Of a stretch of 64,000 nt of DNA, positions 2-58,572 are shown piece after piece. The stretch spans positions 1 to 64,000 of the forward strand of contig NZ_BHZC01000001.1 in the NCBI RefSeq assembly GCF_003865135.1, written 5' to 3'. Numbering within the stretch: position 1 is the first letter of the stretch; the number at the start of each line of letters is the position of its first letter. The notes beneath the pieces are model-generated. The model saw only the letters and a list, made by a program, of their open reading frames with translations. It was not told the DNA's origin and did no database searches. Made by a program: the position numbers and the translations under genes. Source of the DNA: Streptomyces chrestomyceticus JCM 4735. Its GTDB lineage: Bacteria; Actinomycetota; Actinomycetes; Streptomycetales; Streptomycetaceae.

Positions 2-460
2 GTGCTGCTCGACCCCGGGATGCAGGAACGGATCTGGGACGATCACGGGCGCGGCGGACCGGTACGCCCCTTCCGGCCGGACGGGGCGTTCTTCCGCGAA
101 CTCGCAGTACTGCTGGAGCGGCCCTGGCTGGCCGACTGTGAACAGGCTGCGCGGCGTGGGCTGGTGCTGGAAGGCCCACTGCATGCCGGGCCGCTGCTGG
201 ACTGCATGGGCGCGTTCACCCGTGTCCGGCGCGGACAGCAGCACCCCAACGGGTACGGGCTGGATCCGTGGTGGCTGCGCGCGGAGCACCGCCCCGCCTC
301 GGCCCGGGTTCAACTGCGCGCCCTGGCCGAACGAGTTGCGGCCGCACGCCGCGCCGGTGAGGACCGCGCTGCCCGGCCCGGTGGCGGTACGTTTGCGGCC
401 CGTCGGCTGTTCCGCGACCGGTACGGACGCGCCACCACTGCGTACTACCGCGCCCGGTGA
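2..460 (+). CDS. TniQ-family protein, C-terminal part (cut by window edge)
   Basis: The reading frame is open to the left edge and ends at TGA 458-460; about 152 residues are visible. I do not recognise it alone, but it aligns by eye with the middle of the TniQ-like protein at 5017-8589: both have an 'L-DPG-Q-R---D-GR' stretch, then 'LERPWLA' about 35 residues later, then a 'GPL' segment. TniQ/TnsD proteins choose the target site for Tn7-like transposases. This is therefore probably the last gene of a further Tn7-like module lying mostly to the left. Unlike the intact copy it stops soon after this region and has no HA-type repeats. The assignment rests on similarity inside the window only. 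Confidence 0.5.
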   Translation: MLLDPGMQERIWDDHGRGGPVRPFRPDGAFFRELAVLLERPWLADCEQAARRGLVLEGPLHAGPLLDCMGAFTRVRRGQQHPNGYGLDPWWLRAEHRPASARVQLRALAERVAAARRAGEDRAARPGGGTFAARRLFRDRYGRATTAYYRAR

Positions 461-812
461 CCGTACTGGTCCCGGCGCGGCTGGCGGAGCGGGCTCTCAC
501 TGCCCCTTCGGCGGAGCCGCAGCCGGCACAGCGACGGCACGGCCCGCGGCATGGACCACGCGTTCATACTCCTCGTCGCCCAGGAGGATCGGCAGGCCGA
601 GCATGGTGGCCCAGCAACTTTGACCTCTTCGGGCGCGTCGTCGCCGTGCCGCCGGTACAGCGCCCTTCCCCCGGGTAACCGGGGTGAAGATCACGCGGCC
701 GGATGCGCGCCCGGTCGGCGACATCATCGGCGGGGCAAGGCGAGGCGCTTCGCGCGGTGGAGGTTGGCTGATTTCGGCGGTTCGCGCGTGTGGGCGCGCT
801 TGACTGGAGCGC
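461..812. other. Gap between two Tn7-like modules
   Basis: No convincing gene was seen on either strand. The end of the left-hand module and the left end of the next one should lie here if the modules are separate insertions, but I could not find a terminal inverted repeat or a short target duplication by eye. Confidence 0.3.
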
Positions 813-1784
813 ATGATCGACGAGCATCACCCGCCGGCCGCCGGCAGCACTGCCTTGCCCGCATCGCCATGGCAGAGCGCGGGAGCGCAAGGTGGTGCAC
901 AGGCCGCACAGGTATCCGGTCCGGCAGACGGAGGATGCGACCAATCGCCGCTCATGGCGGTCCGAAAGCCGGCTGGCGCATCCGGGGACTCCGCCGGGCT
1001 GCCGGGCGAGCTGCCGGAAGATGCTGAGACGACCGCGGATTTACCGGTCGGGATCGGCGACCGGCTGGAAGCTCGGTTCGTCGACCAGGCGGGAACCGAG
1101 CAGCGGACGTTGTGGCCGGACGCCGCGCGCGGTGTCTGCTTGGAGGAGTGCGGTCCGGTGCGCCGGTTCCCGGTGCGGCACGGCAAGCGGATGGCGCCGG
1201 GGTGGTGGTGGTCGGCGACCAATGGCCGGCTGGTGCACTACGCGTCCGGCGTCATGCGGACCCAGGTGATGCTGCTGGACTGGGATCCTTCGATCGTGGC
1301 CATTGCGTGCCGCCCGGTGGAACTCACCTGGCGTGAGCGTGACGGAACCTGGGTGCGGCACGCACCGCACCTGATGGCCCGGCTCGCGGACGGCAGGGGT
1401 CTGCTGGCGGACTGCGCCGGGCACGGCGATATCTCGCCGCGCCTGGCCTGTCGGGCGGCGGTTACGGAGGCCGCGGCCGCGGCGGTCGGATGGCGCTACC
1501 AGGTCCTGCGGCCCCCGGATCCGGTTCTGGCAGCCAATCTGCGCTGGCTGGCCGGGTACCGGCACCCCCGCTATAGGGGCGGCGAACTTGCCGTACGCGC
1601 AGCTGAGGTCTTCCGGCGGCCACGCCCGCTGATCGAGGGGGTACGAGAACTCGGCGACCCGGTTCAGGTCTTCCCGGTGGTCTTCCACGCGCTGTGGCGC
1701 GGCGACTTGTCGGCCCGGCTGGAGAAGCCGCTGCACGAGCGGGTGAACGTGACGGCGGCCCCCCAGGGGCGGAGGCAGAGGTGA
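813..1784 (+). CDS. tnsA: TnsA-like transposase endonuclease subunit
   Basis: TnsA nucleases cut the 5' ends of Tn7-like elements and work with the TnsB transposase. The conserved part starts near residue 80. It shows the actinobacterial TnsA pattern: 'GWWWSATNGRLVHY', then a segment with 'LLDWDPSIVAIACRPVEL', then the nuclease-like strands around 'HLMARLADGRGLLADC', then 'LRWLAGYRHPR'. The same blocks recur in the copies at 10504-11304 and 14503-14767. The stop overlaps the next gene by a GTGA tetranucleotide (1781-1784), which implies translational coupling with tnsB. The start is uncertain: ATG 813 gives a proline/alanine-rich N-terminus with no match to copy 2, and ATG 954 is an alternative. 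I did not identify the catalytic residues individually. Confidence 0.75.
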   Translation: MIDEHHPPAAGSTALPASPWQSAGAQGGAQAAQVSGPADGGCDQSPLMAVRKPAGASGDSAGLPGELPEDAETTADLPVGIGDRLEARFVDQAGTEQRTLWPDAARGVCLEECGPVRRFPVRHGKRMAPGWWWSATNGRLVHYASGVMRTQVMLLDWDPSIVAIACRPVELTWRERDGTWVRHAPHLMARLADGRGLLADCAGHGDISPRLACRAAVTEAAAAAVGWRYQVLRPPDPVLAANLRWLAGYRHPRYRGGELAVRAAEVFRRPRPLIEGVRELGDPVQVFPVVFHALWRGDLSARLEKPLHERVNVTAAPQGRRQR

Positions 1785-3949
1785 GCGGCACGGTGCTGGA
1801 GCCCGGAACACAGGTGCGTTTCGCGAAGCGGACCTGGACGGTGGTCATGCTGGAAGGGGCATGCGTACGGCTGGTCGACGCGGACAACTCCGTGGCTATG
1901 GTGCTTGCGAACTTCCTGTTCGCCGACCCCGACTTTGAAGTGGTGGGCGCCCCGCAGCGCGGCGTGCCGCCGTTCGGGCTCCTGGAGGAACTGCCGGAGC
2001 AGGTGCGCGAGCGTGCGTACGCCTGGGAGCGGCATGTGCGTGAGGTCGAGACCGGATACCCCGTCCCGGGACAGGACCAGGTGCCGCGGGCCGAGTTCGA
2101 TCCGGCCATGCGCACCATGGCGGAGCGGGAGGAGGCCAAGGCCGCCGAGCTGACGGCGGCCGGGCAGCCGGCCAGTGCGGTGACGGTGCGGCGGATGCGG
2201 GCCCGCTACCGGGAGCAGGGCCTGTGGGGGCTGGTGGACGGCCGGGCTGCCCGGCGGCGCTCGCCGGTGGGGCGCGCGGACGAGCGGGTGGTCGCCGCGA
2301 TCGAGCAGGCACTTGATGCGCAGCGGGAGCGGTCGACCGGGACGCTGAGCCGGCTGCGGCGTGCGGTCGGCTGGATTCTGGAGGATACGCATGGCGCGGG
2401 GGCGGTGAAGGTGCCGCCTGCCTCGACGTTCAACCGGCTGGTCCACGCCCTCGCAGACCGTCAGGGGCTGCTGGGAACCGCGGCGCAGCGGCGCCGTCAT
2501 TCCTCACGGCCGGCTCCGCCGTTCACCCCGACGGTGGCGTTGCGGCCCGGTGAGCTGGTGATGCTGGACAGCACCCCTTTGGACGTGATGGTGGTCCTGG
2601 CCGACGGGGTGGTGGGTAAGGCCGAGCTGACGATCGCGCTGGACGTGGCGACGCGCAGTATCTGTGCGACCGTTCTGCGGCCGATGGGCACAGGGTCGGT
2701 GGACGCGGCGATTCTGCTGGCGCAGATGGTGACGCCCATGCGGATGCGCCCGGGATGGGAAGAGGCGCTGGCGATGTCCCGGTCGGCCATCCCCTACGAG
2801 CGGCTGGTGTCCCTGGACGCGCGGCTGGAGGGGGCGGCAGCCCGTCCAGTAATCAGCCCGGAGACGGTGGTCGTCGACCAGGGCCGGGTGTTCGTCTCCG
2901 CCTCGTTCGTCGCGGCGTGCGACAGCCTGGGGGTGTCGGTGCAGCCGGCGCCGCCGGCCAACGGCCCGGCCAAGGGACATGTCGAGAGAATGTTCCTCAC
3001 CATCGGCGACCGGTTCTCCCAGTACGTGGCCGGTTACACCGGATCCGACGTCACTCAGCGCGGCTCTCACGTCGAGGACGAGGCGTGCTGGACGCTTCCC
3101 CAGATCCAGGACCTGCTGGACGAGTGGCTGATCGCGGACTGGCAGCACCGCCCGCACGCATCTCTGCGCCATCCGCTGGCCCCCAAGCTCGCGGTGTCGC
3201 CGAACGAGATGTGGGCCGCGCTGGTCGGCGTGACCGGCTATGTCCCGGTGCTGCTCAGCGAAGAAGACTACGTCGAGCTCATGCCGGTCAAGCGGCTGGG
3301 CATCAACGACTACGGCATCCGCTTCGACTACCGCACCTACGACCACGAGGTCCTCAACCCGCACCGCGGGCGCAGGTCGACGGCCCCGGACGGGATGTGG
3401 GAGGTGCACCACAACCCTTATGACCCCCAGCAGATCTGGGTGCGGCTGCCTGGCGGCTGGGAGGAGGTGCCCTGGATCCACAAGGAGCGGGTAAGCCTGC
3501 CCTTCACCGACTTCACCTGGCGGCACATCCGCGCGACCGTCGAGCGCCGCGGCGACCGCGACGAGCACGAGCAACAGCTCGCCCAGGCCTTGGACCGCCT
3601 CCTGCGGCGGGCCGGCAACGGGGAAGGCACCCGCCGCGAGCGGACCGTCGCGGCACGCGCCAGCGCCGCAGCCTCCCTCGCCGGGCCCGCCCCAAACCAG
3701 CAAGAGCCGCCCGACCCCCTCACCGCCCCGACCCTCTCCTACGGCCTGGTCGGCGCCTTCACCCCAGCAAGCCCGGATGAGCCCGACGACGAAGAGTTCG
3801 AGGACGGCTGGGACGAGGACGAAGACCCGCTCGGCACATCAGACGATGCCGGCGGCGGCCCCGCCGGAGACGAACAGCCATCCGGGCGGGCCGCAGTCCC
3901 CCGCCCGTCACGGATCTACGATGCCCGCCAGGAGGCAACCCAGTGGTAG
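1781..3949 (+). CDS. tnsB: TnsB/TniA-type DDE transposase (module 1, intact)
   Basis: This is the strand-transfer subunit of a Tn7-like element. It starts at GTG 1781 behind a GGAGG box and gives 722 residues. The order is an N-terminal DNA-binding part with a winged-helix-like stretch ('TVRRMRARYREQGLWGLVDG'), the RNase H-fold core, a Mu-type beta-barrel region, and an acidic tail rich in Asp/Glu. The DDE triad is visible: Asp near residue 262 in 'MLDST', Asp near 366 in 'VVVDQG', Glu near 403 in 'GHVERMF'. 'SPNEMWAALVG' follows in the usual place. Its last codons overlap tnsC. The acidic tail could contact TnsC, as TnsB tails do in Tn7, but that is inference. No frameshift or internal stop was seen, unlike in the two other copies. 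Confidence 0.88.
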   Translation: MSGTVLEPGTQVRFAKRTWTVVMLEGACVRLVDADNSVAMVLANFLFADPDFEVVGAPQRGVPPFGLLEELPEQVRERAYAWERHVREVETGYPVPGQDQVPRAEFDPAMRTMAEREEAKAAELTAAGQPASAVTVRRMRARYREQGLWGLVDGRAARRRSPVGRADERVVAAIEQALDAQRERSTGTLSRLRRAVGWILEDTHGAGAVKVPPASTFNRLVHALADRQGLLGTAAQRRRHSSRPAPPFTPTVALRPGELVMLDSTPLDVMVVLADGVVGKAELTIALDVATRSICATVLRPMGTGSVDAAILLAQMVTPMRMRPGWEEALAMSRSAIPYERLVSLDARLEGAAARPVISPETVVVDQGRVFVSASFVAACDSLGVSVQPAPPANGPAKGHVERMFLTIGDRFSQYVAGYTGSDVTQRGSHVEDEACWTLPQIQDLLDEWLIADWQHRPHASLRHPLAPKLAVSPNEMWAALVGVTGYVPVLLSEEDYVELMPVKRLGINDYGIRFDYRTYDHEVLNPHRGRRSTAPDGMWEVHHNPYDPQQIWVRLPGGWEEVPWIHKERVSLPFTDFTWRHIRATVERRGDRDEHEQQLAQALDRLLRRAGNGEGTRRERTVAARASAAASLAGPAPNQQEPPDPLTAPTLSYGLVGAFTPASPDEPDDEEFEDGWDEDEDPLGTSDDAGGGPAGDEQPSGRAAVPRPSRIYDARQEATQW

Positions 3950-5001
3950 CAGTCCCCGAAGCCGGTCCCGTCCCGGACGAGGAGCAGCAGATGGCGGCCT
4001 ATGCGCCACCGACCACGCGGGAGGGCTGGCAGCAGTTCGTCGGCACTCCCCCGCTGCAGCCCCCGCCAGACGCCGGCGAGGACTGGTCGCTTGAGGAACG
4101 CCTGGACTACCACTCCCGGTTTGTCGTCCTGACCACCCCGGCCATGGAACGCATCTCACTGTCGGTTCGGCGACTGATGCTCCTCAACCGCCGCCAGCAG
4201 GGCACCGCGCGCCGCGGACTGATCGTGTCCGGGCCACCCACCACCGGCAAGACCACCACCCTGCTGGAGATGGGCCGCACCTTCGAGCTCGCCGAGCAGC
4301 GCCGCCACCCCGGCCGCGCCGACCGGCTGCCCGTGGTGTTCCTGGCGGTGCCGCCCGCCTCCACTCCCAAGATGCTGGTATCGGAGTTCGCCCGGTTCCT
4401 CGGTATCCCCATCGCGGTCCGGATGAACCAGGCGCAGATCACCGACGCCGTCTGCCACCTTTTGTGCCAGCTGGGCACCGCGCTGGTCCTCGTCGACGAC
4501 GTCCACCTGCTCGACACCCGCACCCGGGCCGGCTCGGAGACCTCCGACCAGATGAAGCACCTAGGCGAGAGGATTCCGGCGACCTTCGTCTACGCAGGCG
4601 TCGACGTCGAGGCATCCCCCCTGCTCAACGGGCCGCGCGGCGCACAGTTGGCAGGCCGCTTCACCCTGGTCCGCAACACCGCCCTGTCCCGCGGCACCGC
4701 CGAACAGCGCGCCATCTGGCTGGACCTGGTCACCGACATGGAAAACGCCCTGCACCTGCGCCACCACACCCAAGGCACTCTGGCCCGGCACGCCGACTAC
4801 CTCCACCAGCGCACCGGCGGAGTCATGGGAAGCCTCTCCCACCTCATCCGTGAAGCCGCCCTCACCGCCCTCCTCGACGGCAGCGAAAAGATCACCAAAC
4901 GGCTCCTGGCCGGCATCCAGCTCGACATCCGCGCGGAGCAGCAAGCCCGCCCGCCCCGAAAACGCCTCCCGCGCCCCCGCAACAACGGCACTGGATCCTG
5001 A
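3943..5001 (+). CDS. tnsC: TnsC/TniB-type AAA+ ATPase (module 1, intact)
   Basis: This is an ATP-dependent regulator that links the target selector to the transposase. The start is GTG 3943 behind an AGGAGG box, overlapping the tnsB stop; the product has 352 residues. Walker A is 'GPPTTGKTT' near residue 95, and Walker B is 'ALVLVDDVHLL' near residue 180. The size fits TnsC/TniB. The C-terminal block around 'YLHQRTGGVMGSLSHLIREA' recurs almost unchanged at the end of the degenerate fusion gene at 17.6 kb, which identifies that remnant. It lies between tnsB and tniQ in the standard order, so it probably belongs to a single transcript. Confidence 0.87.
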   Translation: MVAVPEAGPVPDEEQQMAAYAPPTTREGWQQFVGTPPLQPPPDAGEDWSLEERLDYHSRFVVLTTPAMERISLSVRRLMLLNRRQQGTARRGLIVSGPPTTGKTTTLLEMGRTFELAEQRRHPGRADRLPVVFLAVPPASTPKMLVSEFARFLGIPIAVRMNQAQITDAVCHLLCQLGTALVLVDDVHLLDTRTRAGSETSDQMKHLGERIPATFVYAGVDVEASPLLNGPRGAQLAGRFTLVRNTALSRGTAEQRAIWLDLVTDMENALHLRHHTQGTLARHADYLHQRTGGVMGSLSHLIREAALTALLDGSEKITKRLLAGIQLDIRAEQQARPPRKRLPRPRNNGTGS

Positions 5002-5016: not shown

Positions 5017-8000
5017 GTGAAGAAGACCACCAGCCCTCTAATGGAACCTGCCGTCAGGGATTATTCGCAGCCACCACAGCGCGAGCAGAACGAACTATCC
5101 CTGCACAGTCCGCCTTTGGGCGCGGTGCGTGTCGCTCCACTGAACGGCGAGACGACGCTGTCGTTCATGAGCAGAGTCGCCTCCCGGTACAAGCTCACGG
5201 CCAAAGAACTCATCGGCGCGCTCGTGGACGTGGGGCGGCGGCCCAACCTGTTCACGGTGCGGCCCGACGGCGAAGTGGTCTTCAACGCCGAGGCCCGGGC
5301 GGTGGTCGCCGCTTTCTGCCGCATGCCCGAAGAACACCTGCACCGTGCTCTGCCGGCCTGGGGCAGAGACGTCCCTTCGAGCAGGCTCGGGAACAGGCCG
5401 GCCGCCTGGGTCCGCACCGCAGCCACGATCCCGCCGACCGGCCCCGGATGCCGGGCGTGCACCGCGACCGCCACACGAGGCCAGGAAGAAGCACGCCGCT
5501 ACCTGCTGCCGCACGGCCGGGTATGCGTCAAGCACCAGTGCTGGATGATGGAAACACCCGTCGTCGACGGGGCAGCGGCCGTCCCCGGGCAGTTGGACCT
5601 GCGGTATGTGCCGCAGAACGGGGCGGCCCAGCGCCGTCATATACGGCTGCTGCGGCGCTCTGCGCACGCCGGCGAAGCGTTCACCATGGCGCAGGCAATC
5701 ATGGCTTCGTGGTGGGACGAGCCCTGGCTGGAAGAGATCCTCTGGCCCGATCGGCTGCGGCTGATGGCACCCGGCAACGACCTCGCTTGGCGTGCCGCAG
5801 CGCGGGATGCGGTGACCTATCCCGAGGCCGTCACGCTGGCCGCGGCTCTCGCCGACCCAGGCCTGCAGCAGCGGCTACTCAATGACGCGGGGCGGCACCA
5901 GCCGCACGCGCTCGCCGATGTCCCCAGCCTCGTGGACGAACTGGCTCGGCGCCTTGAGCGGCCATGGCTCGCCGGTCGCCTCAGCGCCATCACGACAGGC
6001 CCACTGAACGCCTGGGTACGCGCCTGCGTACGCACCCAGGCCGGGCACAAGCCGAAAACACGCAGCATGTGGCACGTCTCCCCGCCCCACCGGCCCGCAC
6101 CGATCACCCGGCTCCTGGCCGAAACCCGGCCCGTCGACGAAACGCCCGGAAAAACGGAGTCGGCGAGGGCGCCGGCCCCAGACGTGGCCGAGACCGCCAA
6201 GGGGTTCGCGCGCGGCCTGCGCCATGCCCGCACCTACGCCACCGAACACGGCCACCTCTGCATTCCTTACCGGCATGAAAAGGACGGGTTCCAACTCGGC
6301 CTGTGGCTGGCCAACCAGCGCGCCGCAGGCCCCCAGCTCTCCCCCGAGCGCAGCCAGGCCCTGGCCGCTCTTGACCCGTGGTGGAATCCTGCGTGGAGCA
6401 CACTGTGGCAGCGCATCTATCTGCGCGCACGACGGCTGCTGGACCTAGGCACCGACATCAGACCCGAGCAGGGCTTCCCGGGCACCAGCGAGAACCTCGG
6501 CACCTGGCTGTACCGGCAGTGCCAGGTCTACAGCAGCCTCCACCCCCAGCAGCGCAGACTACTGGCACAGATCGGCATCAGTGCCGAAGCCGCCCGCCAC
6601 GCACTGCCGCGGCGTCGCAACCTCGCCGAGGCCCGTGACCAGAGCCTGACCAACGCACGCGCCTACTGGCAGGAGCACGGGCACCTTTGTGCAAGCTCTG
6701 CTGATACGTACGCCGGCTTCCCCATCGGCCAATGGCTGACCAACCTCCGCGTACGCGCCCGACGCGGCATTCTCGATCCCGCCCTCACACAGCAGCTGGA
6801 CGCAATGGATCCGTGGTGGGCACCGCCCTGGCCCTCCGACTGGCAGCGAGCCTGCTACACGGTGACCGAACTCGTCCGCTCCGGCCACCCCCTCGACCCC
6901 GAAAGCGTCTTTGCAGCCTTCGACGACGAACTCGGTCAATGGCTATACACCCAATGTGTGTCCTACCCCGGCTTGGCAGTGGAACAGCGCCGACAGCTCG
7001 CGGCCGTCGGACTGACTGAGCAGACCGCCCAAACCGCTCGCCCCAACCCCGCCACCCACAGGCCGTCCCTGGAGACCGGTCTCTACTACGCCCGCTCCTA
7101 CGCGGCACTGCACGGCGACCTCAACGCATCACCCTCCGACCGGCACGAGGGCTTCCCCATCGGAAAGTGGCTGGCCCGCCAAAAGCACCAGGCCGGCCTT
7201 CACACCGCCAAGTTCGCCGCGCCCTACCCGGCCGGCCCACTGCTGGCCGCCATCGACCCATGGTGGAACCCACCGTGGAACGGGGACTGGCAGATCAACC
7301 ACCGCGCCGCCCGCAGACTCGTCGAGAACGGGATCAAACTCCTCCCTGCACAAGGCTTCCCCGGCACCCCCGACTGGACTGGGCAGTGGCTCTACACCCA
7401 GTGCGTCACCTACCAGAACCTCCACCCGGGGCAGCAACAAAGGCTCACGCAACTCGGCATCACCACCGCGAACTCCTGCACCGCACAGCCCCGTCGCGTC
7501 ACCCAGCAAGCATCATTCGACACCGGTCTTGCACACGCCCGCTCCTACGCCGCCCAACACGGACACCTCGCCGTACCCAGAAGCGCGAACCACCACGGCT
7601 ACCGGCTGGGGACATGGCTCGCCCACCAACGCAAACGGGCCGCCAACGGCCGACTACCCCACCGTCGCGCCGAGGCCCTCGACGTCCTTGACTCATGGTG
7701 GAACCCGTCCTGGGGCCTACCATGGCAAATCGCCTACCATGCCGTCAGAAACGAGATCCACGGCCACATTCTGAACGCGGCCGCAGGTTTCCCCGGACTC
7801 CCTCCAGCCGCCACCAGATGGCTGCTCACCCAGTGCACCAACTATGGCGACCTCCACCCGGGCCAGCAGGAACTCCTGACCGGACTCGGCATAACGCCCC
7901 AGGACGCACACGCCGCCCGCCCCCAGCGAGAAACACGCATGCGCCGCCGAACCGGCACCAACGGGCCGCGCCCCACAACCGTCTCGTCATCCATCGACGG

Positions 8001-8589
8001 CGGCCTGCCCTACGCCCGCTCATACGCACACACTCACGGCGGACTCGGCACCGCCCACTACACCACCGAACACAACGGATTCCCCCTGGGCTGGTGGCTA
8101 TACGAGCAGCGCAAACGCGCCGTCGCCCACCTACGCCGCACCGGCCGGCCCTGGCCCCACGACACACAGCTCACCGCACTCGACCCGTGGTGGAACCCAC
8201 CCTGGCGGGCCTCCTGGAACCACAGCTACCACCAAGCCCACACCCACCACACCGCCGGCCGCCCATTCCCTGGCACCACGACCAAGTGGATCCGCACCCA
8301 GCAACGCACCTGGAATCAGCTCCACCCCCACCAACAACACCTCCTGACCACCCTCGGCATCCACGGACCCACACCCCTGATCAGCTACAACAGCCGCCCA
8401 ACGAAACTGACCGGCCAACCAATAGAACTGACCAACGGACCTACGGCCACCCTGAAGCAGGAAACCCACAGCTCACAGACCCCGCCCAGCCCCAGCCCGC
8501 AAGCAACGTCAAGCCCCTCGCCAACGCAGAGCACACCGCCAGCCCCAACCAGCCAACTGATCAGCCCAGCTCAACACCCCGAACACTGA
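5017..8589 (+). CDS. tniQ: TniQ-type target selector fused to HA-like repeats
   Basis: This is a 1,190-residue protein starting at GTG 5017, 16 bp after tnsC. Residues about 40-240 look like TniQ: 'APLNGETTLSFMSRVASRY', followed by the Cys-rich motifs 'GCRACTA' near 145 and 'VCVKHQC' near 170 that resemble a zinc-binding pair. From about residue 391 to 1128 there are five tandem repeats of roughly 145-160 residues, beginning near 391, 537, 684, 832 and 992. Each has 'HARSYA--HG-L', 'GFP-G-WL--QR', 'LDPWWNPPW', and then 'W-YTQC--Y--LHP-QQ--L--LGI'. This is the pattern of the helicase-associated (HA, PF03457) domain. The last 60 residues are Pro/Ser/Thr-rich. TniQ proteins are usually 300-700 residues, so the tail is an unusual extension. 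Its role is unknown; binding DNA at the target is a reasonable guess. Confidence 0.8.
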   Translation: MKKTTSPLMEPAVRDYSQPPQREQNELSLHSPPLGAVRVAPLNGETTLSFMSRVASRYKLTAKELIGALVDVGRRPNLFTVRPDGEVVFNAEARAVVAAFCRMPEEHLHRALPAWGRDVPSSRLGNRPAAWVRTAATIPPTGPGCRACTATATRGQEEARRYLLPHGRVCVKHQCWMMETPVVDGAAAVPGQLDLRYVPQNGAAQRRHIRLLRRSAHAGEAFTMAQAIMASWWDEPWLEEILWPDRLRLMAPGNDLAWRAAARDAVTYPEAVTLAAALADPGLQQRLLNDAGRHQPHALADVPSLVDELARRLERPWLAGRLSAITTGPLNAWVRACVRTQAGHKPKTRSMWHVSPPHRPAPITRLLAETRPVDETPGKTESARAPAPDVAETAKGFARGLRHARTYATEHGHLCIPYRHEKDGFQLGLWLANQRAAGPQLSPERSQALAALDPWWNPAWSTLWQRIYLRARRLLDLGTDIRPEQGFPGTSENLGTWLYRQCQVYSSLHPQQRRLLAQIGISAEAARHALPRRRNLAEARDQSLTNARAYWQEHGHLCASSADTYAGFPIGQWLTNLRVRARRGILDPALTQQLDAMDPWWAPPWPSDWQRACYTVTELVRSGHPLDPESVFAAFDDELGQWLYTQCVSYPGLAVEQRRQLAAVGLTEQTAQTARPNPATHRPSLETGLYYARSYAALHGDLNASPSDRHEGFPIGKWLARQKHQAGLHTAKFAAPYPAGPLLAAIDPWWNPPWNGDWQINHRAARRLVENGIKLLPAQGFPGTPDWTGQWLYTQCVTYQNLHPGQQQRLTQLGITTANSCTAQPRRVTQQASFDTGLAHARSYAAQHGHLAVPRSANHHGYRLGTWLAHQRKRAANGRLPHRRAEALDVLDSWWNPSWGLPWQIAYHAVRNEIHGHILNAAAGFPGLPPAATRWLLTQCTNYGDLHPGQQELLTGLGITPQDAHAARPQRETRMRRRTGTNGPRPTTVSSSIDGGLPYARSYAHTHGGLGTAHYTTEHNGFPLGWWLYEQRKRAVAHLRRTGRPWPHDTQLTALDPWWNPPWRASWNHSYHQAHTHHTAGRPFPGTTTKWIRTQQRTWNQLHPHQQHLLTTLGIHGPTPLISYNSRPTKLTGQPIELTNGPTATLKQETHSSQTPPSPSPQATSSPSPTQSTPPAPTSQLISPAQHPEH

Positions 8590-8593
8590 TCAG

Positions 8594-10480
8594 ATGGAAC
8601 GAGCCACGACACGCGACCCCTCCCCCGTTCTCGGGGAGTCGGAGGAGGCGCGGCGGGGCCGGCGTCTGGCGCTGCTGCAGACCGCGCTCCTGGAGCACGC
8701 GGCGGCGTACAACCTGCGCACGGTCATGACGTTCCACCAGAAGGTCGAGGAAGCCGCGGCGTTCGCGGAGAAGCTGCCCGAGACCGCCGCCGAGCTCTAC
8801 ATGAACGACGCCACGGACGAGGACCTGGCCGCCGCCGGCAAGCTGCCCGCGTCGTCGATCGACGCGGAGTTCTACGAGCTGGAGGCCGGCCGCCACGTAC
8901 CCCCAGACCGCGTGTGGTCGGCGTGGCTGTGCGGCGACCACCTCGTAGCCGAGCGGCGCGAGGTCCTGCGCCAGTTCGCCAACGGCATCGACGCGGCCGG
9001 GCGCCGGGTACACCGGGCGTTCCTCGCCAGCGTTCGCGTTCTCGGAGAGGGCGTGGACATCACCGGCGAGCGGGGAGTCGACTCGATCTGCTTCGCCGAC
9101 ACCCGCGGCTCACAGGTGGAGATCGTGCAGAACATCGGCCGGGCCCTCCGGCTCAACCGCGACGGCAGCACCAAGGTCGCCAGAATCATCGTGCCGGTCT
9201 TCCTGGAGCCGAACGAGGACCCCACCGACATGGTCGCCAGCGCCAGCTTCAAGCCGCTCGTGGCCGTGCTCCAGGGCCTGCGTTCGCATGACGAACGTCT
9301 GGTCGAGCAGCTCGCTTCCCGTGCGCTCACGAGCGGGAAGCGCAAGGTGCACGTCCGGCGTGAGGAAGAGGGGCGGATCGTCGGGGCCAGCGGCGAGAGC
9401 GACGGTGAGGACCAGGAGGAGGGCGACGACACCCAGGCCGCGACCGAAGCCGCTCTGCTGCACTTCTCCAGCCCGCGCGACGCGGCGACGATCGCGGCGT
9501 TCCTGCGCACCCGGGTGTACCGGCCGGAGTCGTTGGTGTGGCTGGAGGGCTACCAGGCCCTGATCCGCTGGCGGGCGGAGAACGAGATCACCGGCGTCCG
9601 CGCCGTGCCCTACGACGTCGAGGTCGAGGTAGGGGTCACGAAGTCGTTTCCGCTTGGCCGCTGGGTGCATCAGCAGCGGAAGGCCCTGCGGGCGGGTGAG
9701 CTGGAGGAGCGGCGCAAGACGCTCCTGGACGCGCCGGAGGCCGGGATGGTGTGGGAGCCGGGCGAGGAGGCGTGGGAGAACAAGCTCGCCGCGCTGCGGT
9801 CCTACCGGCGGGCCATGGGGCACCTCGCACCGCGTCAGGACGCGGTGTGGGGCGAGGGCACCGAGATGGTGCCCATCGGGCAGCACATGGCGAACCTGCG
9901 CCGGAAGGGCGGACTCGGGAAGGACGCGGAGCGGGCCGCCGTACGCGCGCAGCAGCTGGCCGCAGTCGACGAGGACTGGAACTGCCCGTGGCCGCTGGAC
10001 TGGCAGCGGCACTACCGCGTCCTGGCGGACCTGGTCGACGCCGACGGCGTTCTGCCGGCCATCGAACCGGGGGTGCAGTTCGAGGGCGATGACATCGGAC
10101 GCTGGCTTCAGCGGCAGAAGAACTCAGGCACCTGGGCGCAGCTTCTCCCCGAGCAGCAGCAGCGACTGTCGAAGCTGGGCGTGCAGCCGCTCGAGGTACC
10201 GCATCCGGCTCCAGGGGCAGCTCATACGACGAAGGGGCCGAGCAAGGCACAGCAAGCGTTCCAACGCGGCCTGGCAGCTCTCACGCAATACATCCAGCGG
10301 GAAGGCAGAACCGTCGTTGGAAGGGGGCATATTGAGGAGATGGCGGATGGTTCGGCGATCAGGCTGGGTGTGTTCCTGAGTAACCAGAAAGTCAGGCGTG
10401 ACCGCCTGGACGCCGCCCAGCTCGCGGCCCTCGCCGAGCTGGGCTACACCTGGGCTGCAGAACAGTCCGGGCGCAGCTGA
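8594..10480 (+). pseudogene. DEAD/DEAH helicase with HA domains, 3' half only
   Basis: The frame encodes the C-terminal half of a superfamily 2 helicase with HA repeats. Near the start it reads 'LRTVMTFHQKVEEAAAF', which lies in the second RecA-like domain. Motif V-like 'LGEGVDIT' and motif VI-like 'QNIGRALR' follow, then an acidic linker, then HA repeats ('FPLGRWVHQQRKAL', 'DEDWNCPWPLDWQRHY', 'IGRWLQRQKNSGTW'). The first RecA domain with Walker A and DEAD box is missing, so it cannot be a working helicase. The first few residues do not look like helicase, so the break lies about 8594-8625, immediately after tniQ. The simplest reading is that the Tn7-like element inserted into a helicase gene and this is the right-hand target remnant. 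The 5' half is not in the window. Confidence 0.75.
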
Positions 10481-10503
10481 CTGACTTCAGCGATGGGGCG
10501 TGC

Positions 10504-11304
10504 GTGCCCATACCGGATGGGCCGATAAGCCGTTTGGTTCTGTATGCAGGATGCTGGGTGGAACGGGGCGGGGGCACGGCGACCGGAAGTCGAGTCGGTG
10601 GATGTGCTGTTCCGGGCCGCGGGCGGGTCCCGGAGTGCTCGAGGTGGTCTTCGGCTGCCGCCGAGGTGCTCTTCGAGAACTGTTCGCCGCTGAAGCCGTT
10701 CCCGGGCCGCGCGGGCAAGCGGCTGGCACCAGGATGGTGGTGGTCGGCCACAACCGGACGGCTGGTGTACTACGGGTCCGCAGCGATGCGACTGCATGTG
10801 ATGATTCTCGACCGCGACCCGCGTGTCAGCGGTCTGGCCGCCCGGCCGCTTGAACTGCGGTGGCATGTGCCCAGTGGGGTGCGGGCGCATGCTCCTCAGC
10901 TGATGCTCCGGCTGGCCGACGGCCAGGGAGTGCTCGCCGACTGCACAGCAAGGGGAGAGCTGTCTCGGCGCCAGCGGTCTGTTGCTGCGGCTGTCGGAGA
11001 GATCTGTACGGCGGCGGGCTGGCGGTACTGGGTGCTCGGTCCTGTCGATCCGGTCTACCGGCGCAATGTGACCTGGCTGGCCGGATACCGGCACCCCCGG
11101 CACCACGGTGGTGGGTTGATGGCTGACGCGCTGCAGGAGGCGTTCGCCGGGCCGGCGCCGCTGTGGGAGGGCGTACGCAGGGTCGGGGATCCGCTGTTGG
11201 TGCTTCCTGCGCTGTTCCATGCCCTGTGGGCGGGACGGTTGGCGGCGGACCTGGGGGCAGCGATGCATGAGCGGATGCCGGTGTGGGCCCAGGCGGCAGA
11301 GTGA
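10504..11304 (+). pseudogene. TnsA-like subunit, module 2 (probable 5' frameshift)
   Basis: From 'GWWWSATTGRLVYYGS' onward the protein matches the intact TnsA at 813-1784, including 'HAPQLMLRLADGQGVLADC' and 'VTWLAGYRHPRHHGG'. Upstream, the residues homologous to the intact N-terminal conserved block ('VESVDVLFRAAGG...') are in another frame, and the frames join near 10640. One extra base in a run near 'cgaggtgg' would explain this. The open frame from 10504 may still express the nuclease core with an unrelated N-terminus. The gene ends with a GTGA overlap onto tnsB2. Confidence 0.6.
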
Positions 11305-12017
11305 GGTCGGGTGGGATGCCGGGCAGGCCGGTGGCGGGGCTGGGATGCCAGGTGCGGTTCGCGGAGCGTACCTGGACGGTGGCGGCCCTTGCTGACGGGC
11401 AGGTCGGGCTGGTCGCCGAGGATGGTGCGGTAGCGGCGGTTTTGCTGTCGCTGCTGTTCGCCGATGCGGGGTTCGAAGTCCTGGACGCTCCGGGGGTGTC
11501 CAGGGTGCCGCCGCTGGGCTTGCTGCAGTCGTTGCCCGAGGCGGTGCGCGAGCGGGCCATGTCGTGGGAGCGGCATGTGCGGGAGGTGGAGACGGGGCAG
11601 CCGGGCGAGCCCGGTGACGAGGGTACGCGGCGGGCGGAGTACGACCCGCAGACGCGGACGCTGGCGCAGCGGGAGGAGGCGAAGGCGGCGGAGCTGTCGG
11701 CGGCCGGCATGCCTACCAGCGCGGTGACGGTGCGGCGGATGCGGGCCCGCTACCGGCAGGACGGGGTGTGGGGGCTGGTGGACCACCGTGCCACCCGGCC
11801 GCGGACGGCGCTGGGGCGTGCGGACGAGCGGGTGGTGACCGCTCTGCGGGAGGTGCTGGAGACAGGGCGGGAGCGCTCCAGCGGGACGCTGGGGCGGTTG
11901 CGGGTGTACACCGAGCGGCTGCTGGCCGAGCAGTACGGGGAGGGGGTGGTGCGGCTGCCCTCGGGTGCGACGTTCAATCGGCTGGTGCACGCCCTGGCTG
12001 ACGGGCGTGGGCTGCTG

Positions 12018-12105
12018 GTGTCGGCGTACGTGCTTAGCTGGCTCTGGCTTGATTTTCGTAGGCGGAGATCATCCCGGGGCGGGGATCGGCCGGACCGCGT
12101 CGCGG
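12018..12105. repeat. Left 88-bp terminal inverted repeat of the ISL3 element
   Basis: Perfect reverse complement of 13704-13791. It starts GTGTCGGCGTACGTGCTTAG. Identity ends abruptly after base 12105. Confidence 0.9.
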
Positions 12106-12137
12106 GCAAGATCTGACTGTGCCCTGTTGAACTTCCT

Positions 12138-13740
12138 TTGCTGTTACCGCACTTGACGAAGGTTCTGGTGACTTCGGTCGATGTTTCCGGGGCCGCGGTA
12201 GTGGTCCGTGCCCGGACAAGGGCGCGTGCTCCCGCAGCCTGTACGGGGTGCAAGATGCCGAGTGCGTGGGTTCACAGCCGTTACGAGCGGCATCTCGCGG
12301 ACGCTGCCGTGGGTGGCCGCCCGGTCCGGATCGATCTGAGCGTGCGGCGTCTGTACTGCGAGAATCCGGCCTGCCCGAAGCGAACATTCGCCGAGCAGGT
12401 TCCGGGGCTGACAGTCCGCTACCAGCGGCGCACGCCGTTGCTCCAGCAGGTGGTCGAGGCGGTCGGCATCCTGTTGGCTGGCCGTGGCGGTGCGCGGATG
12501 CTGCAGATCGTCGGCGTTGGGCTCTCGCGGTGCATGGTGCTCTCCCAGCTGATGCGGGTACCGCTGCCGCCGCTGGTCACGCCCCGGGTGCTGGGGGTAG
12601 ACGATTTCGCGCTCTACGGCGATACCTACGGCACGCTCCTGGTCGACGCCACCAGCCGTCTCCCGCTCACTCTGTGGGAAGGTCGGGACGCCGACCAGCT
12701 CGGCCGCTGGCTGCGCGAGCATCCTGGCGTCGAGGTCGTCTGCCGCGACGGATCCCTCGCCTACCGGCAGGGCATCACCTCCGGTGCGCCTGACGCCTTG
12801 CAGGTCGGAGACCGCTTCCACCTCTGGCAGGGACTGTCCCGGCAGATCCAGAAGATTGCCTCCGCGCACCACGGCTGCCTGCCCGCCGCACTCCCGGAGC
12901 CGGAACCGGCGACCGCCGGGATGCCAACGGCACCCGCAGCCCCGGAGACTCCCGCCGACCGGCACGCACGGCGCCTGTTCGAAGCCGTACACGCCCTCGC
13001 CGACACAGACCGCTCCATCAGCAGCATGTCCCGCGAACTCGGCCTGGACCGCAAAACGGTGCGCAAGTATGCCCGCGCCCGCACCTGGCAGGAGGTCGTG
13101 CGCCGGCTTCCCCGCCGCACCACTGCCCTGGACCCCTACCTCAACTACCTGCAACAACGCTGGGACGAGGGCGAACACAGCGCGAAGGTCCTCCACGAGG
13201 AGCTCTTGGCCAAGGGCTATCCCGGCCACTACCAGCGCGTGAAGATGGCCGTCGCACCCCTACGACGCGGGCTGCCCCTGGACGAGCCTCGCGAACGGCC
13301 GCCCTCCCCACGCGAAGCCGCACGTTGGATCATCACCGCCCCCGACCACCGCACCCCACACAGCGCACAGTGCCTGCAACGGCTCCTCGACCACTGCCCC
13401 GAACTCCGGCGCGCTCACCATCTGGTCCGCCTGTTCGCCGCCATGCTCGACACCTGCGACGCCGCCCCACTGCCCCAGTGGCTCGACGAGCTCACCACCA
13501 GCGGTCTGCCCGCCCCTGGCGGGCATGGCGAAAGCTCTCCGCGAAGACCAGCACGCCGTCGTCCAGGGCATCACAACCCGCTACAACTCCGGCGTCAACG
13601 AAGGCCGTATCACCGACGTCAAGCTCCAGAAACGCCTCATGGCCGGACGCGCCGGCGTCCCCCTTCTCCGCCACCGCGTCGTACTGATCGCCCACCTCCG
13701 CCGCCGCGACGCGGTCCGGCCGATCCCCGCCCCGGGATGA
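12138..13740 (+). pseudogene. ISL3-family transposase, frameshifted near its C-terminus
   Basis: A TTG start at 12138 gives the usual ISL3 layout: an N-terminal zinc-finger-like part ('CTGCKMPSAWVHSRYERH' and 'CENPACPKRTF'), then a DDE core with 'GVDDFALYGDTYG', then a helix-turn-helix-like block ('SRELGLDRKTVRKYARA'). Near 13520 the family pattern leaves this frame. The expected C-terminal sequence ('MAKALREDQHAVVQGI', 'YNSGVNEGRITDVKLQKR') continues in the next frame to TGA 13738-13740. A one-base slip thus separates the last ~70 residues, including the conserved glutamate region. The original-frame read-through is Arg/Pro-rich noise. Either the enzyme is dead, or a frameshift product is made; ISL3 elements are not known for the latter. 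Confidence 0.7.
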
Positions 13741-13791
13741 TCTCCGCCTACGAAAATCAAGCCAGAGCCAGCTAAGCACGTACGCCGACAC
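13704..13791. repeat. Right 88-bp terminal inverted repeat of the ISL3 element
   Basis: Perfect reverse complement of 12018-12105. It overlaps the last codons of the transposase, so coding sequence is also present, inverted, at the left end. This suggests that the left end was copied from the right. Confidence 0.9.
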
Positions 13792-14502
13792 TGGGCAGTG
13801 CGCGGCAGCGTCAATGGCGCTCAGCGAGGCCGGCTCCTCCGTTCGTGCCGGCGACGGTGTTGGCGCCGGGTGAGCTGGTGATGATGGACAGCACCGTGCT
13901 GGACGCCTTCGTGGTCCTCGACGACGGAGTGGTGGAACGGCCCGAGCTGACCATCGCGCTCGATGTCGCCACCCGGACCATCTGCGCCGCCGTGTTGCGT
14001 GCGAAAGGGACCCGCAGCGTCGACGCGGCGCTGCTGCTGGCGCAGATGATGGTCCCGGCGCCGATGCGGCCCGGTTGGGCCGAGGCGCTGGCGATGGAAC
14101 ACTCGGTGGTACCCTACGAGCGGCTGCTGAGCGTTGATGCCCGGCTCGAAGGCGCCGCGGCGCGGCCGGTGATCACCCCGCAGACCATCGTGGTCGATCA
14201 GGGCAAGGTGTTCGTGTCGTCCTCGTTCATCGCCGCCTGCGAGTCGCTGGGCATCTCTGTGCAGCCCGCGCCGCCGGGCAACGGCCCGGCCAAGGGGCAC
14301 GTGGAGCGCACCTTCTCCTCGATCAACACCCTGTTCGTGCAGCATGTGGCCGGCTACACGAGCTCGCACACCGGCGAGCGCGGCCAGGACACCGAAGGGG
14401 AGGCAGTGTGGACGCTGGCCCAGCTGGACGACCTGCTGCAGGAGTGGATTATCTGCGGGTGGCAGGAGCGCGAGCACGACGGGTTGCGGCACCCGATGAT
14501 GC

Positions 14503-14767
14503 CCCGCTGTGGCTGGCCGGCTACCGCCATCCCCGCAACGCCGGCCGCCCGGGCCTGACGCCCACTGTTCTGGAGGCGTTCGCGCGGCCGCGGCCGCTGC
14601 TCGCGGGAGCCGAAGGTGTCGGTGACCCGATCGAGGTCCTTCCCGTCGTCTTCCACGCCCTGTGGCACGGACAGCTCACGACGGGCCTGGAGGCGCCGCT
14701 GCACGAGTGCGTTCTCGTCGGCCCCAGGCACTGGAACGGTCTGGGTGAGACGGGAGGTGCCGGGTGA
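14503..14767 (+). pseudogene. TnsA-like subunit, module 3, C-terminal fragment
   Basis: It begins inside the conserved 'LWLAGYRHPR' motif at the deletion junction with tnsB2. It then reads through 'VLEAFARPRPLL' and 'VLPVVFHALWHGQL', matching the last ~85 residues of both other TnsA copies. It ends with a GTGA overlap onto tnsB3, the same coupling as in the other modules. The nuclease core is absent. Confidence 0.8.
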
Positions 14768-15474
14768 GCGCGCGGCGCGATGCGCGGCCGGCCGTGGCGG
14801 TCGGGGCGCATGTCCGTTTCCGCGATGTGAAGTGGCAGGTGATCGCTTTGTCCGGGCAGATGGTTCACCTCGTCGGCCCGGACGGCGGCGGTGAGGCGGT
14901 GCTTGCCGGGTACCTGTTCGCCGATCCCGGCTTCAGTGTCATCGGGGCCGACGTGCCGCAGGCGGCCCCGCAGTGGGGGCTGTTCGAGACCGCGCCCGCC
15001 GCGGCGCGGGAGAAGGCCCTGGCCTGGCAGCTGCACGTGAGGGAGGTCGAATGCGGCCTTGCCGACGGGCCCGGCAGCGGTGGAGTGGTGCGCGAGCAGT
15101 ACGATCCCGCACGGCACACGCTGGCCGAGCGGGAGCAGGCCAAGGCTGAGGAGCTGACCGCGCTGGGGTTCGGGCGGGTATCGCGTACCACGGTGCAGCG
15201 CATGCGCCTGGCCTACCGCAAGCAGGGACTGTGGGGGCTGCTCGACCACCGCACCACCCGCGCCTCCAGCCCTACCGGGCGCTCCGACGGACGGGTCGTC
15301 GCCGTCCGCGAGGCGCTGCGCCGCCGGCGCGGACGTTCCAGGGGCACCATCAACGGCCTGTTCCCGCTGATCAACCAGATCCTTCAGGGCCGGCACGGCA
15401 TCGAGGGGCGGGCTTTCACCCCCACCACCGCGCTGCGGCCGGGCGAGCAGGTCCAGATCGACACCACCCGCCTA

Positions 15475-16597
15475 GTGACCTGAGTCGGAGATTCGTCGTT
15501 GGTTGGGTATGAGTCGTCCGGGTCCGAAGATTGCGCCGTTGTCGGTCACTGATGCCCAGCGGGCTGTGCTGGAAGGCTGGGTGCGTCGGCGTACGACGGC
15601 TCAGGCGCTGGCTCAGCGGTCGCGGATCGTGCTGGAGTGTGCCGAGGGGCGCTCGATCCTGGAAGTGTCGCGCCGGCTGCGGATCGCCCCGGACACGGTC
15701 CGCACCTGGCGGCGCCGTTTTCTGGAGCGCGGGCTGGACGGCTTGTGCGACGAGCCGCGGCCGGGTGTCCCGCGCAAAATCACCGACGCGGATGTCGAGC
15801 GGGTGATCGTCAAGACGCTGGAGGAGAGGCCGAAGAACGCCACCCACTGGTCGACGAGGTCGATGGCGGCGGCCACGGGCATGTCGCAGTCGGCCGTTTC
15901 GCGGATCTGGCGGGCGTTCGCCCTGGCCCCGCACCGCACGCAGACGTTCAAGCTGTCCACCGATCCGTTGTTCATCGACAAGGTCCGCGATGTAGTGGGG
16001 CTCTACCTCGATCCGCCGGAGAAGGCCCTGGTGCTGTGTGTGGACGAGAAGTCGCAGATCCAGGCGCTGGACCGGTCCCAGCCGGTCCTGCCGATGATGC
16101 CCGGGGTGCCCGAGCGGCGCAGTCACGACTATGTCCGGGCCGGCACCACGACGTTGTTCGCCGCCCTGGAGGTGGCGAGCGGGAAGGTCTTCGGCTCGCT
16201 GCACCGCCGGCACCGGGCCGTGGAGTTCAAGAAGTTCCTGGCCAGGCTGGACAAGGAGGTCCCGGCCGGCCTCGGCGTGCATCTGATCCTCGACAACTAC
16301 GCGACGCACAAGACGCCCGCGGTCAAGACGTGGCTGCTGGCGCACCCGCGCTTCCACCTGCACTTCACCCCCACCAGCGCGTCCTGGCTCAACCTGGTCG
16401 AGCGCTGGTTCGCCGAACTGACACAGAAGAAGCTCAAGCGCGGCGTCCACCGCTCCGTCCAGGCCCTCGAACGCGACATCCGGGCCTGGCTGGCCGACTG
16501 GAACGAGCACCCACGCCCCTTCCTCTGGACCAAATCCGCCGACGAGATCCTCGACAAAGTCGCCGCCTACTGCCACCGGATCTCTGACTCAGGTCAC
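15475..16597 (+). mobile_element. IS630-family insertion sequence in tnsB3
   Basis: About 1.12 kb, flanked by TA on both sides (15473-15474 and 16598-16599), the expected IS630 target duplication. The ends are inverted repeats: the left begins GTGACCTGAGTCGGAGAT and the right ends ATCTCTGACTCAGGTCAC, with a single mismatch over 18 bases. Removing the element and one TA restores the tnsB reading frame exactly, which fixes the boundaries. Confidence 0.93.
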
Positions 16598-16600
16598 TAG
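15509..16600 (+). CDS. IS630-family transposase
   Basis: A 363-residue protein with an intact frame. An N-terminal double helix-turn-helix ('RSILEVSRRLRIAPDTVRTW') is followed by the DDE core: Asp in 'VLCVDEKSQ', Asp in 'LILDNYATH' and Glu in 'WLNLVERWF'. The length is normal for the family. ATG 15509 was chosen; a TTG two codons upstream is possible. The stop TAG at 16598-16600 is made from the duplicated TA plus the first flanking base, so the terminator codon depends on the insertion site. The protein looks functional. Confidence 0.92.
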   Translation: MSRPGPKIAPLSVTDAQRAVLEGWVRRRTTAQALAQRSRIVLECAEGRSILEVSRRLRIAPDTVRTWRRRFLERGLDGLCDEPRPGVPRKITDADVERVIVKTLEERPKNATHWSTRSMAAATGMSQSAVSRIWRAFALAPHRTQTFKLSTDPLFIDKVRDVVGLYLDPPEKALVLCVDEKSQIQALDRSQPVLPMMPGVPERRSHDYVRAGTTTLFAALEVASGKVFGSLHRRHRAVEFKKFLARLDKEVPAGLGVHLILDNYATHKTPAVKTWLLAHPRFHLHFTPTSASWLNLVERWFAELTQKKLKRGVHRSVQALERDIRAWLADWNEHPRPFLWTKSADEILDKVAAYCHRISDSGH

Positions 16601-17771
16601 ATGTTCTGGTCCTCTTCGACGACGGGCGTCTGGCCCGGCCCGAGCTGACTATCGCCGTCGACGTCGCCACCCGCTCCATCCTGGCCGCCGTGCTGTGCCC
16701 GAGCGCGACCAAGGCCGTGGACGCGGCCCTGCTGCTGGCGGAGATGGCCGTCCCGCACCCGGCCAGGCCGACCTAGCCAGGCATCCTGCGCATGGACCAC
16801 GCCCGCGCGCTCCCCCATCAGCGGCTGGCCACGCTGGATGCGCCTGGCCGGTGCGGCGGCCCGGCCGGTCGTGTTGCCCGAGACGATCGTCGTCGACCGG
16901 GGCAAGGTCTTCGTCTCCGCCGCGTTCACCGCCGCCTGCGAGACCCTCGGCATCAGCGTCCAGCCCGCCCCGCCCCGCGCCCACCGCCAAAGGCATCGTC
17001 GAGCGGACCTTCGGCACCATCAACGCCCTGTTCTGCCAGCACCTGCCCGGCTACACCGGCTCCGACGTCACCCGTCGCGGCCCCGACACCGAGCAAGACA
17101 CCTGCTACAGCGTCGCCCAACTGCAGGACCTCCTCGATGAGTGGCTGGTGCACTACCACCACCGGCCCCACGAAGGGCTGCGCCACCCGATGATGCCCAG
17201 GAAGGCCCTTACCCCGAATGAGATGTGGGCCGCGCTCGTCGCCGGACACGTCCCCGTCCCATTGACCGGGCGCGACTACCTCGACCTGTTGCCCGTGCGC
17301 TGGCAGGCCATCACCCCCGCCGGCATCACCATCCACCACCGCACCTACAACACGGATCTCCTCGCCCCGCACCGCGGCCAGGCCTCCCCCGTCCCCGGCC
17401 GGGGCGGGAAATGGGAGATCCACTACAACCCCCACGACGTGCGCCACGTCCACCGGCCCTTCGATGAACGCACCTGGCAGCGCATCCGCACCCAGGCCGC
17501 TGACGGCAACCACGGTGACGCCGAGCAGTACGAAGCCAGCCTCGCCGACGCCCTCGACCTCCACCATCACACACCCGGCACCCTCCCCCGCCATGCCCCC
17601 TACCTCCACCAGCGCACCGCCGGCCGCATCGGATCCCTCACCCGCCTCATCCGCCAAGCCGCCATCACCGCCATCCACGACGGCACCGAACGCATCACCA
17701 AACGATCACTCGACGCTATCCGCCTCGACCACCTCGCCGAAACCCACCACCGCCCCCGCCGAGGCCGATAA

Positions 17772-40354: not shown

Positions 40355-40439
40355 CGCACCGGCGCGCTCTTCCCGGCGGCAGGCTCCCCGAGCGGCAGTG
40401 CGCCCGACGACAACGGCAAGCTGGACGCCACCGTGGCAG

Positions 40440-40770
40440 CCGCCCCCGTCACCCTGCTGCGCCAAGCCCTGCACCCCGACACCTGACCGGTCAGACAGCC
40501 ACCTGCGGCAGGGGCCGGCCCTGCGCGGCACGGACCGGCTCCAGGCAGAGAGAATTCTCACCGTAGCCGTAGCGATGGCACGGCTGATGGCACCAGGCGC
40601 ACCTGCCGACCTGATCGGACGGGCAGGACAGCGGGGCACCCGGGCATGAGGCGGACGAGGTCATGGCGGTCGATCCTCTCTCGTTCAACGCTGAAGGAAC
40701 CGTTTTGCCGCTCCGGTATCCCCCGCCGAGAATCGACCACCTTACGAGGCGACGGGAAGCTCGTCGACGT
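40440..40770. repeat. Copy 1 of a diverged ~330-bp dispersed repeat
   Basis: Matches 59630-59960 in the same orientation, at roughly 80-85% by eye. Shared anchors are CTGCTGCGCCAAGCCCTGCA, CCTGACCGGTCAGACAGCCA and TCCTCTCTCGTTCAACGCT. It covers the end of a lost plus-strand gene and the small zinc-ribbon gene on the minus strand. Confidence 0.75.
40491..40664 (-). CDS. Small zinc-ribbon-like protein, possibly damaged
   Basis: 57 residues from ATG 40664. 'CAWCHQPCHRYGYG' supplies a C-x2-C pair, but the second pair seen in its relative at 59678-59860 ('CRRC') is replaced by 'SLC'. The flanking residues 'LSCPSDQVGRCA' and 'RPLPQVAV' are conserved. It may no longer bind zinc. Function unknown. 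Confidence 0.5.
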   Translation of the reverse strand: MTSSASCPGAPLSCPSDQVGRCAWCHQPCHRYGYGENSLCLEPVRAAQGRPLPQVAV

Positions 40771-41025
40771 CCAGGTCCTCGCTTACCCGCACCGCACGCG
40801 GCCGATGCCGGAAGCGGTGCCACTCGGTGGGCGCGGCCTGGTGGTCGGCCTGATCTCTCCACCACCACCTCGGACCGTACGGTGCTGCGCGCGCCTCCCG
40901 CCGTACGGCCCGCCCGGCGGCCCGTCGGCCAGCGAGGAGAGCGCCCCGGCTCCGCGGGCGCTCCGGCCTGCTCGCACCACAAAGCCGCCGCCGTGGGCCG
41001 TTTCCGTGGTGGCGGCCCGGCTCCC

Positions 41026-41784: not shown

Positions 41785-41879
41785 CGCCACCCCCGCGTAC
41801 TTCTTGACCGGGCCGGACTTTCCAGCCCTGTCCACAACGGTAGAAGCTTCCCCTGCGGCAGCTTCAAGCCGCGCCCCAG

Positions 41880-57676: not shown

Positions 57677-57725
57677 AAACGCGGCGAACCAGGTAGATTG
57701 CCGAAGGCTACGAAGGGAGAGGCCC

Positions 57726-58283: not shown

Positions 58284-58572
58284 TCCAGCACGCTCGGTTA
58301 CTACTTCGCGAAAATCTTGCGAGACCCAGCTGTCCTGTCCGCCCACAAGGATCTTGCGCTGTCCGCTCTCACGCGCCGCGCGCACCAGCCGAGTCTGATC
58401 ACCTCGAGCGCGCCGCACCGCGCCGTATCACAGCACACCTTGCCGACACCCTTGCCAACCCGCGCCGCAGCCGCGCGCTCCCTTGCCGAACGCGCGCACC
58501 GGCCCCCGAGGTCGGTCGCCGCGTTGCGCGCGGCCGGGAGCCGAGGAGCTGGAAGGAGAGGAGGTAGGGATC

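Follow-up and report, generated by a model that had tools for sequence, protein, structure and literature searches.

A Tn7-like transposon with a TniQ-HA protein, probably homing into ttrA-type helicase genes of Streptomyces replicon ends

Introduction

In the TnsD pathway of Tn7, a fixed attachment site is used for insertion. Hsieh and coworkers (Science 2025, eadp1973) have reportedly described telomeric transposons in linear bacterial replicons, including those of Streptomyces, and part of the present finding may already be known from that work.

According to the available part of PMC12669027, one class of telomeric transposons carries a CRISPR I-E5 variant that lacks TniQ-TnsD; the element described here has a TniQ. 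The accessible portion of a survey of Tn7 target selectors (PMC10293859) considers that long C-terminal extensions of these proteins recognise target DNA, and mentions no fusion to helicase-associated (HA) domains or to a helicase. The telomeres of Streptomyces are replaced via crossing-over and break-induced replication, as stated in the available part of PMC7205883, a process similar to the one proposed here in that chromosome ends are exchanged between replicons; in its main text, as far as available, a term search found neither transposition nor Tn7, helicase or ttrA. The gene ttrA is presented in the accessible part of PMC8743542 as the inward-reading helicase gene of Streptomyces replicon ends. 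Our name "ttrA-type" rests on that description, the comparison set containing no sequence labelled ttrA. Neither a TniQ-HA selector nor a ttrA site is mentioned in the available parts of PMC10293859, PMC8743542 and PMC7205883, and the terms sought were absent from PMC8627663. In the partly available literature, and in a comparison that did not include the text of Hsieh et al. 2025, our search retrieved no description of a TniQ-HA fusion or of a Tn7-like insertion into ttrA.

The locus reported here resembles Tn7 and its TnsD pathway in having TnsA, TnsB, TnsC, a long protein of the TniQ/TnsD type and a fixed attachment site. On the other hand, its TniQ extension is an array of HA domains, its site lies inside a gene, which is split by the insertion, and no left end was recognised. 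At the level of sequence comparison, element, site and replicon end are associated, and TniQ-HA is probably the target selector, i.e., the TnsD part. We favor, with reasonable but incomplete confidence, the explanation that this is a Tn7-like, telomere-associated transposon that homes, probably through TniQ-HA, into the ttrA-type helicase gene of the resident end.

Gene content of the window

The window, which is the whole stretch of 64,000 nucleotides analysed, corresponds to bases 1-64000 of a genome of 9,377,418 bp assembled in one contig, and is thus the left end of the assembly. All four components sought in Tn7-like elements (TnsA, TnsB, TnsC/TniB and TniQ/TnsD) are present (Table 1), and the TniQ-HA gene is the final one of the TnsA-TnsB-TnsC-TniQ module. 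Relatives of TnsB are named in their records as transposase or Mu transposase C-terminal domain protein, and TnsB has candidate positions for what we take to be the DDE motif. The clipped TniQ2 gene is 83% (2-280) and 92% (228-671) identical, in two frames, to TniQ2 of locus L184. TniQ2 shows about 34-36% identity to the TniQ core and is possibly a second target selector. A TniQ2 gene is found upstream of TnsA in many relatives (for instance, L184 5717-7135 and L033 2615-3574).

Table 1. Features identified in the window
Feature	Position	Strand	Evidence or remark
TniQ2 C-terminal part, second TniQ-like gene	2..671	+	clipped by assembly start, in two frames
TnsA	813..1784	+	NCBIfam NF033179 TnsA_like_Actin 3e-80; score 268.7, cut-off 110 bits
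TnsB transposase	1694..3949	+	rve 9.7e-4, Mu-transpos_C 0.0032; both below curated cut-offs
TnsC/TniB AAA+ regulator	3943..5001	+	PF05621 7.4e-14, AAA_22 2.4e-9
TniQ-HA, proposed target selector	5017..8589	+	TniQ core residues 37-175; ten HA domains 402-1119; 1190 aa
Inner (right) end of element, ending ...CCACGACA	8529..8611	+	end profile 1.1e-17 (itself profile member)
Helicase remnant, 3' part of ttrA-type gene from codon 269	8612..10480	+	89% to pFRL1 helicase residues 269-888
Older Tn7-like module remains (TnsA', split TnsB', more TnsA/TnsB/TnsC pieces)	10504..17771	+	tblastn segments

The remains of the older modules begin 24 bp past the ttrA stop, and their TnsA' matches NF033179 with an E-value of 1.2e-77. 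The older TnsB' is split by an IS-like insertion (12018-13791) with perfect 88-bp inverted ends (12018-12105 and 13704-13791) and an ORF of 545 aa (12138-13775) that is ISL3-like by eye. A second IS-like ORF is located at 15503-16600, among the same remains, and two diverged repeat pairs (82% and 75% identity) occur at 40424-42229 and 56069-59990.

The telomere core was not found in the first 400 nt of the window. The opposite end of the assembly, taken as its final 20 kb (L011), has no DNA in common with the window (blastn, 1e-5). These 20 kb contain polyketide-synthase-like ORFs, and neither assembled end resembles a telomere.

Inner end of the element and its relatives

The preliminary description placed a truncated helicase fragment 5 bp past the tniQ stop. 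The truncation is correct; the starting point is displaced, as the homology begins at 8612 and not at the ATG at 8594. The ORF 8594-10480 presents HA domains (PF03457, 5.7e-37, four stretches). All six long DNA alignments with intact helicases start at 8612, and the match of the window to near-identical elements stops at 8611 (L184), 8615 (L024) or 8617 (L022). Therefore the inner boundary was set at 8611/8612 (...CCACGACA / CGCGACC...), between ttrA codons 268 and 269, and the final tniQ codons overlap the inner end. An origin of the junction by homologous recombination between ttrA copies was rejected, because the break falls exactly on a conserved end, which near-identical elements carry beside different genes. 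Linear Streptomyces plasmids have inward-reading helicases close to their ends, and that of pFRL1 is among them; helicase relatives are located 1-4 kb from linear plasmid ends and also read inward.

When each species was represented by one genome, scanning revealed 125 stretches encoding TniQ-HA relatives, of which the best 80 gave 72 loci; plasmid records were added to these. A motif scan, a profile of 15 ends and a second profile, seeded with five sequences that the first had matched weakly (E 0.056 to 0.76), yielded 37 ends in total. In 32 cases the end follows a TniQ core on the same strand, four ends are in loci without a core match, and that of L016 lies upstream of the TniQ-HA gene of this locus. 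In addition, the end pattern was sought in 392 Streptomyces genomes and matched in 11 of them, with no reversed pattern among the matches listed. After two weak matches without the terminal GACA were set aside, 11 ends in nine genomes were left. All of them face inward, and their distance to the end of the contig or replicon is 0.3 to 55 kb.

Replicon ends and the outer side

The outer side of the element in the window is missing from the assembly, and the position at a linear replicon end is seen in the relatives L156 and L157. The contig of locus L156 begins within the telomere core (no mismatch) and continues with an intact ttrA, with cargo and with TnsA-B-C-TniQ-HA; the inner end comes next, joined to a ttrA remnant that starts at codon 269. 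L157 has the same layout, with one mismatch in the telomere core. The own ttrA of L156 is 69% identical to the pFRL1 gene and the remnant 92%, so the two are different alleles. Locus L027 also starts in this way, with a telomere and an intact helicase, and has the Tns module and a helicase remnant that begins at residue 367; its inner end was not recognised by the end profile (best 11.1 bits, E 0.48). Among the 64 loci with a plus-strand TnsA, an intact helicase lies upstream of TnsA within 12 kb in 22. The helicase 5' halves that were anticipated on the far side of the elements in the preliminary description were looked for in the same 64 loci, and none was found upstream of TnsA.

From the layout of L156 and L157 and from the missing 5' halves, we infer that insertion replaces the resident end. 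In the proposed mechanism, the HA array of TniQ-HA would read the DNA of the ttrA-type helicase gene, a marker of replicon ends, and TnsC with TnsA/TnsB would then join the inner end at the chosen helicase site. One step further, the element would carry a telomere and a helicase of its own, so that its insertion would swap the replicon end, and repeated rounds would leave stacked remnants such as those at 8612-17771 of the window. In its most specific form, this would be telomere exchange by one-ended, protein-guided transposition, the mobile replicon end consisting of telomere, ttrA, TnsABC, TniQ-HA and a single transposon end, with the HA selector reading the resident helicase gene. We advance this form tentatively, at somewhat less than even chances. 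To our knowledge, no mechanism for one-ended joining is known.

The alternative on this point is an ordinary two-ended Tn7-like element that homes to ttrA-type genes, whose left end is too diverged for recognition, whose outer helicase half has disappeared or is not covered by the data, and in which the telomere and the outer ttrA belong to the host. Tn7-like elements are normally two-ended, and elements with different ttrA alleles share both the outer helicase's 3' tail and the spacer that precedes TnsA, as a left boundary there would give. In several loci this tail travels with TnsA, and it could be a hidden left boundary. However, when the collected loci were searched with the two end profiles, and with the final 24 bp of each of the 37 ends in inverted form, nothing convincing was obtained as a left end, and there was no inverted end match; the 5' half expected upstream of TnsA is missing; and the outer ttrA genes of L156 and L157 are complete and of another allele than the remnant. 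We consider a two-ended element unlikely on this evidence, with perhaps one chance in a handful. No 5-bp target duplication was seen by eye at the helicase 3' ends, and the loci yielded no outer flank of the same target gene for comparison.

The last codons of the outer helicase, followed by a CCCATTACCGGATGGG-like spacer before tnsA, are common to loci with different ttrA alleles. This spacer was seen in L055, L050, L070, L056, L165 and at 10330-10660 of the window.

A recurring insertion codon

The junction lies at ttrA codon 268/269 in the window, L025, L028 and L030, and at the homologous codon of a HelB-type helicase in L013, L022, L031, the plasmid L166 and L178, the last one coming from the pattern search. 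These nine junctions are 0-2 bp from one homologous codon across two helicase families, which is the fixed attachment site expected for a TnsD-type selector. They do not descend from one inherited junction, because L022, whose TniQ-HA is 97% identical to that of the window, is inserted in the other helicase family (about 40% amino acid identity), and because the nine helicase remnants are 30 to 92% identical to one another. The 60 bp upstream of the site are conserved between the TtrA and HelB genes, with a mean identity of 0.61.

Thirteen other ends of the window type are located elsewhere. L029 and L174 join a helicase at different points, L026 and L177 lie in helicase genes of reversed orientation, and L171 is at the 3' end of an HA gene (by eye). 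The remaining eight (L023, L024, L061, L072, L168, L170, L173 and L175) are outside HA genes. In a second clade, the ends are often a few codons before the HA-repeat motif L..LGM.W, within or at the end of an HA gene (L034, L039, L078, L047, L055, L056, L079 and L165, several of them by eye). Another ttrA break, at residue 249, was observed in L160 (reverse complement, near nt 540), not beside a known inner end, and is perhaps the target of another element.

Before counting, we excluded L050 and L043, whose flanks measure 1 and 0 bp, L172 and L176, which have three mismatches and no terminal GACA, and L179 and L180, as G223 and G177 were already represented by another copy; the same-strain pairs L057/L077 and L047/L090 were retained. 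The genes at the boundaries of the TniQ-HA relatives were recorded, and 21 of the 35 readable junctions are in genes of HA proteins (19 of them with a blastx match at E <= 1e-3, L056 with one at 0.016, and L079 by eye). Two are in tnsA or tnsB of another element, and the remaining 12 have no gene assignment. Flanks without assignment in the first set are those of L016, L017, L023, L024, L036, L044, L054, L057, L061, L073, L077 and L089, and in the pattern search those of L168, L170, L173 and L175. In the L024 flank, a piece of 32 residues matches unannotated plasmid DNA (best 66.7%, 4e-5).

When a single BLAST rule was applied and self-matches were discarded, 20 of the 37 ends, the plasmid ends L165 and L166 included, fell in HA genes, against 267 of 1480 random positions of the same loci (p 1.3e-6, relatedness ignored, as in all these p values). 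The high control value (18%) reflects the abundance of helicase DNA in these regions. Three ends had been ascertained through the helicase (the window, which was the seed, L029 and L031), and without them 17 of 34 are in HA genes (p 3.0e-5). When the pattern-search ends were added to these, the proportion was 20/42 (p 1.6e-5); taken alone, they gave 3/8 by BLAST, which does not exceed the control (p 0.16).

This control level, the result of the pattern-search set alone and the 14 of 35 junctions elsewhere, two of them within other tns genes, agree with a second alternative, that subtelomeric DNA is targeted in general, or via TniQ2, and that ttrA-type genes are struck through their abundance there. 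The 14 junctions outside HA genes, the pattern-search result, and the fact that TniQ2 could select targets, are also among the points against the homing of the element by TniQ-HA. Nevertheless, abundance is opposed by the nine junctions within 2 bp of one codon and by the excess in HA genes that persists after the helicase-ascertained ends are removed, and we regard general targeting as improbable.

Origin of the TniQ-HA repeats

The TniQ core of TniQ-HA scores 24.8 bits with PF06527, slightly below the cut-off of 27.0, and the structure model of the protein has a pLDDT of 77.1 and a pTM of 0.48. The preliminary description had matched the TniQ repeats, by eye, to HA repeats, and the profile search agrees (PF03457, 6.4e-60, five stretches). 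The five tandem repeats counted there are, nevertheless, pairs, i.e., ten HA domains by an iterated HA profile, which found 5 to 10 domains in 53 TniQ-HA proteins and four in each of 29 intact helicases. The genome has nine PF03457 matches, every one in the TniQ-HA gene or the helicase ORF. A protein of Streptomyces malaysiensis (P0078, 849 aa) is predicted to have TniB domains and HA domains together.

All 426 TniQ HA domains are nearest to another TniQ HA domain and none to a helicase one, with a mean best identity of 0.87 to the former, partly inflated by near relatives in the set, versus 0.38 to the latter. In the other direction, one of 116 helicase HA domains is nearer to a TniQ domain. 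The TniQ and helicase domains are not cleanly separated in a tree of 542 HA domains, the best split misplacing 87. The TniQ-HA fusion occurs in 152 protein clusters (E <= 1e-20); among the 120 of them listed, those with a name are mostly annotated as "helicase associated domain" protein.

As the fusion is found in so many clusters, the gain of the repeats was not a recent event. A single gain by recombination with an HA-helicase gene, one of two readings proposed initially, is thus unsupported as a recent one; an ancient single capture may have taken place. The other reading, that the element targets HA-helicase genes with repeats taken over from its target, survives in its first half, given the junction counts and the recurring codon and allowing for the junctions elsewhere, whereas for its second half the domain comparisons give no sign of a recent takeover. 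The repeats common to TniQ-HA and the helicase are, judging from the domain comparisons, a family resemblance and not a recent capture. That they were newly acquired from the neighbor helicase and have no targeting role, as the same Pfam family in adjacent genes might suggest, is contradicted by the domain identities and the number of clusters, and is most improbable.

Implications

The proposed homing of this element into ttrA-type genes gives a concrete route by which Streptomyces chromosome ends could be exchanged, so far ascribed to recombination in the available part of PMC7205883. It also suggests a function for a family, known in 152 clusters, that is mostly annotated as "helicase associated domain protein". 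The target selectors known for Tn7 would thereby gain a new type of reader, built as a repeat array.
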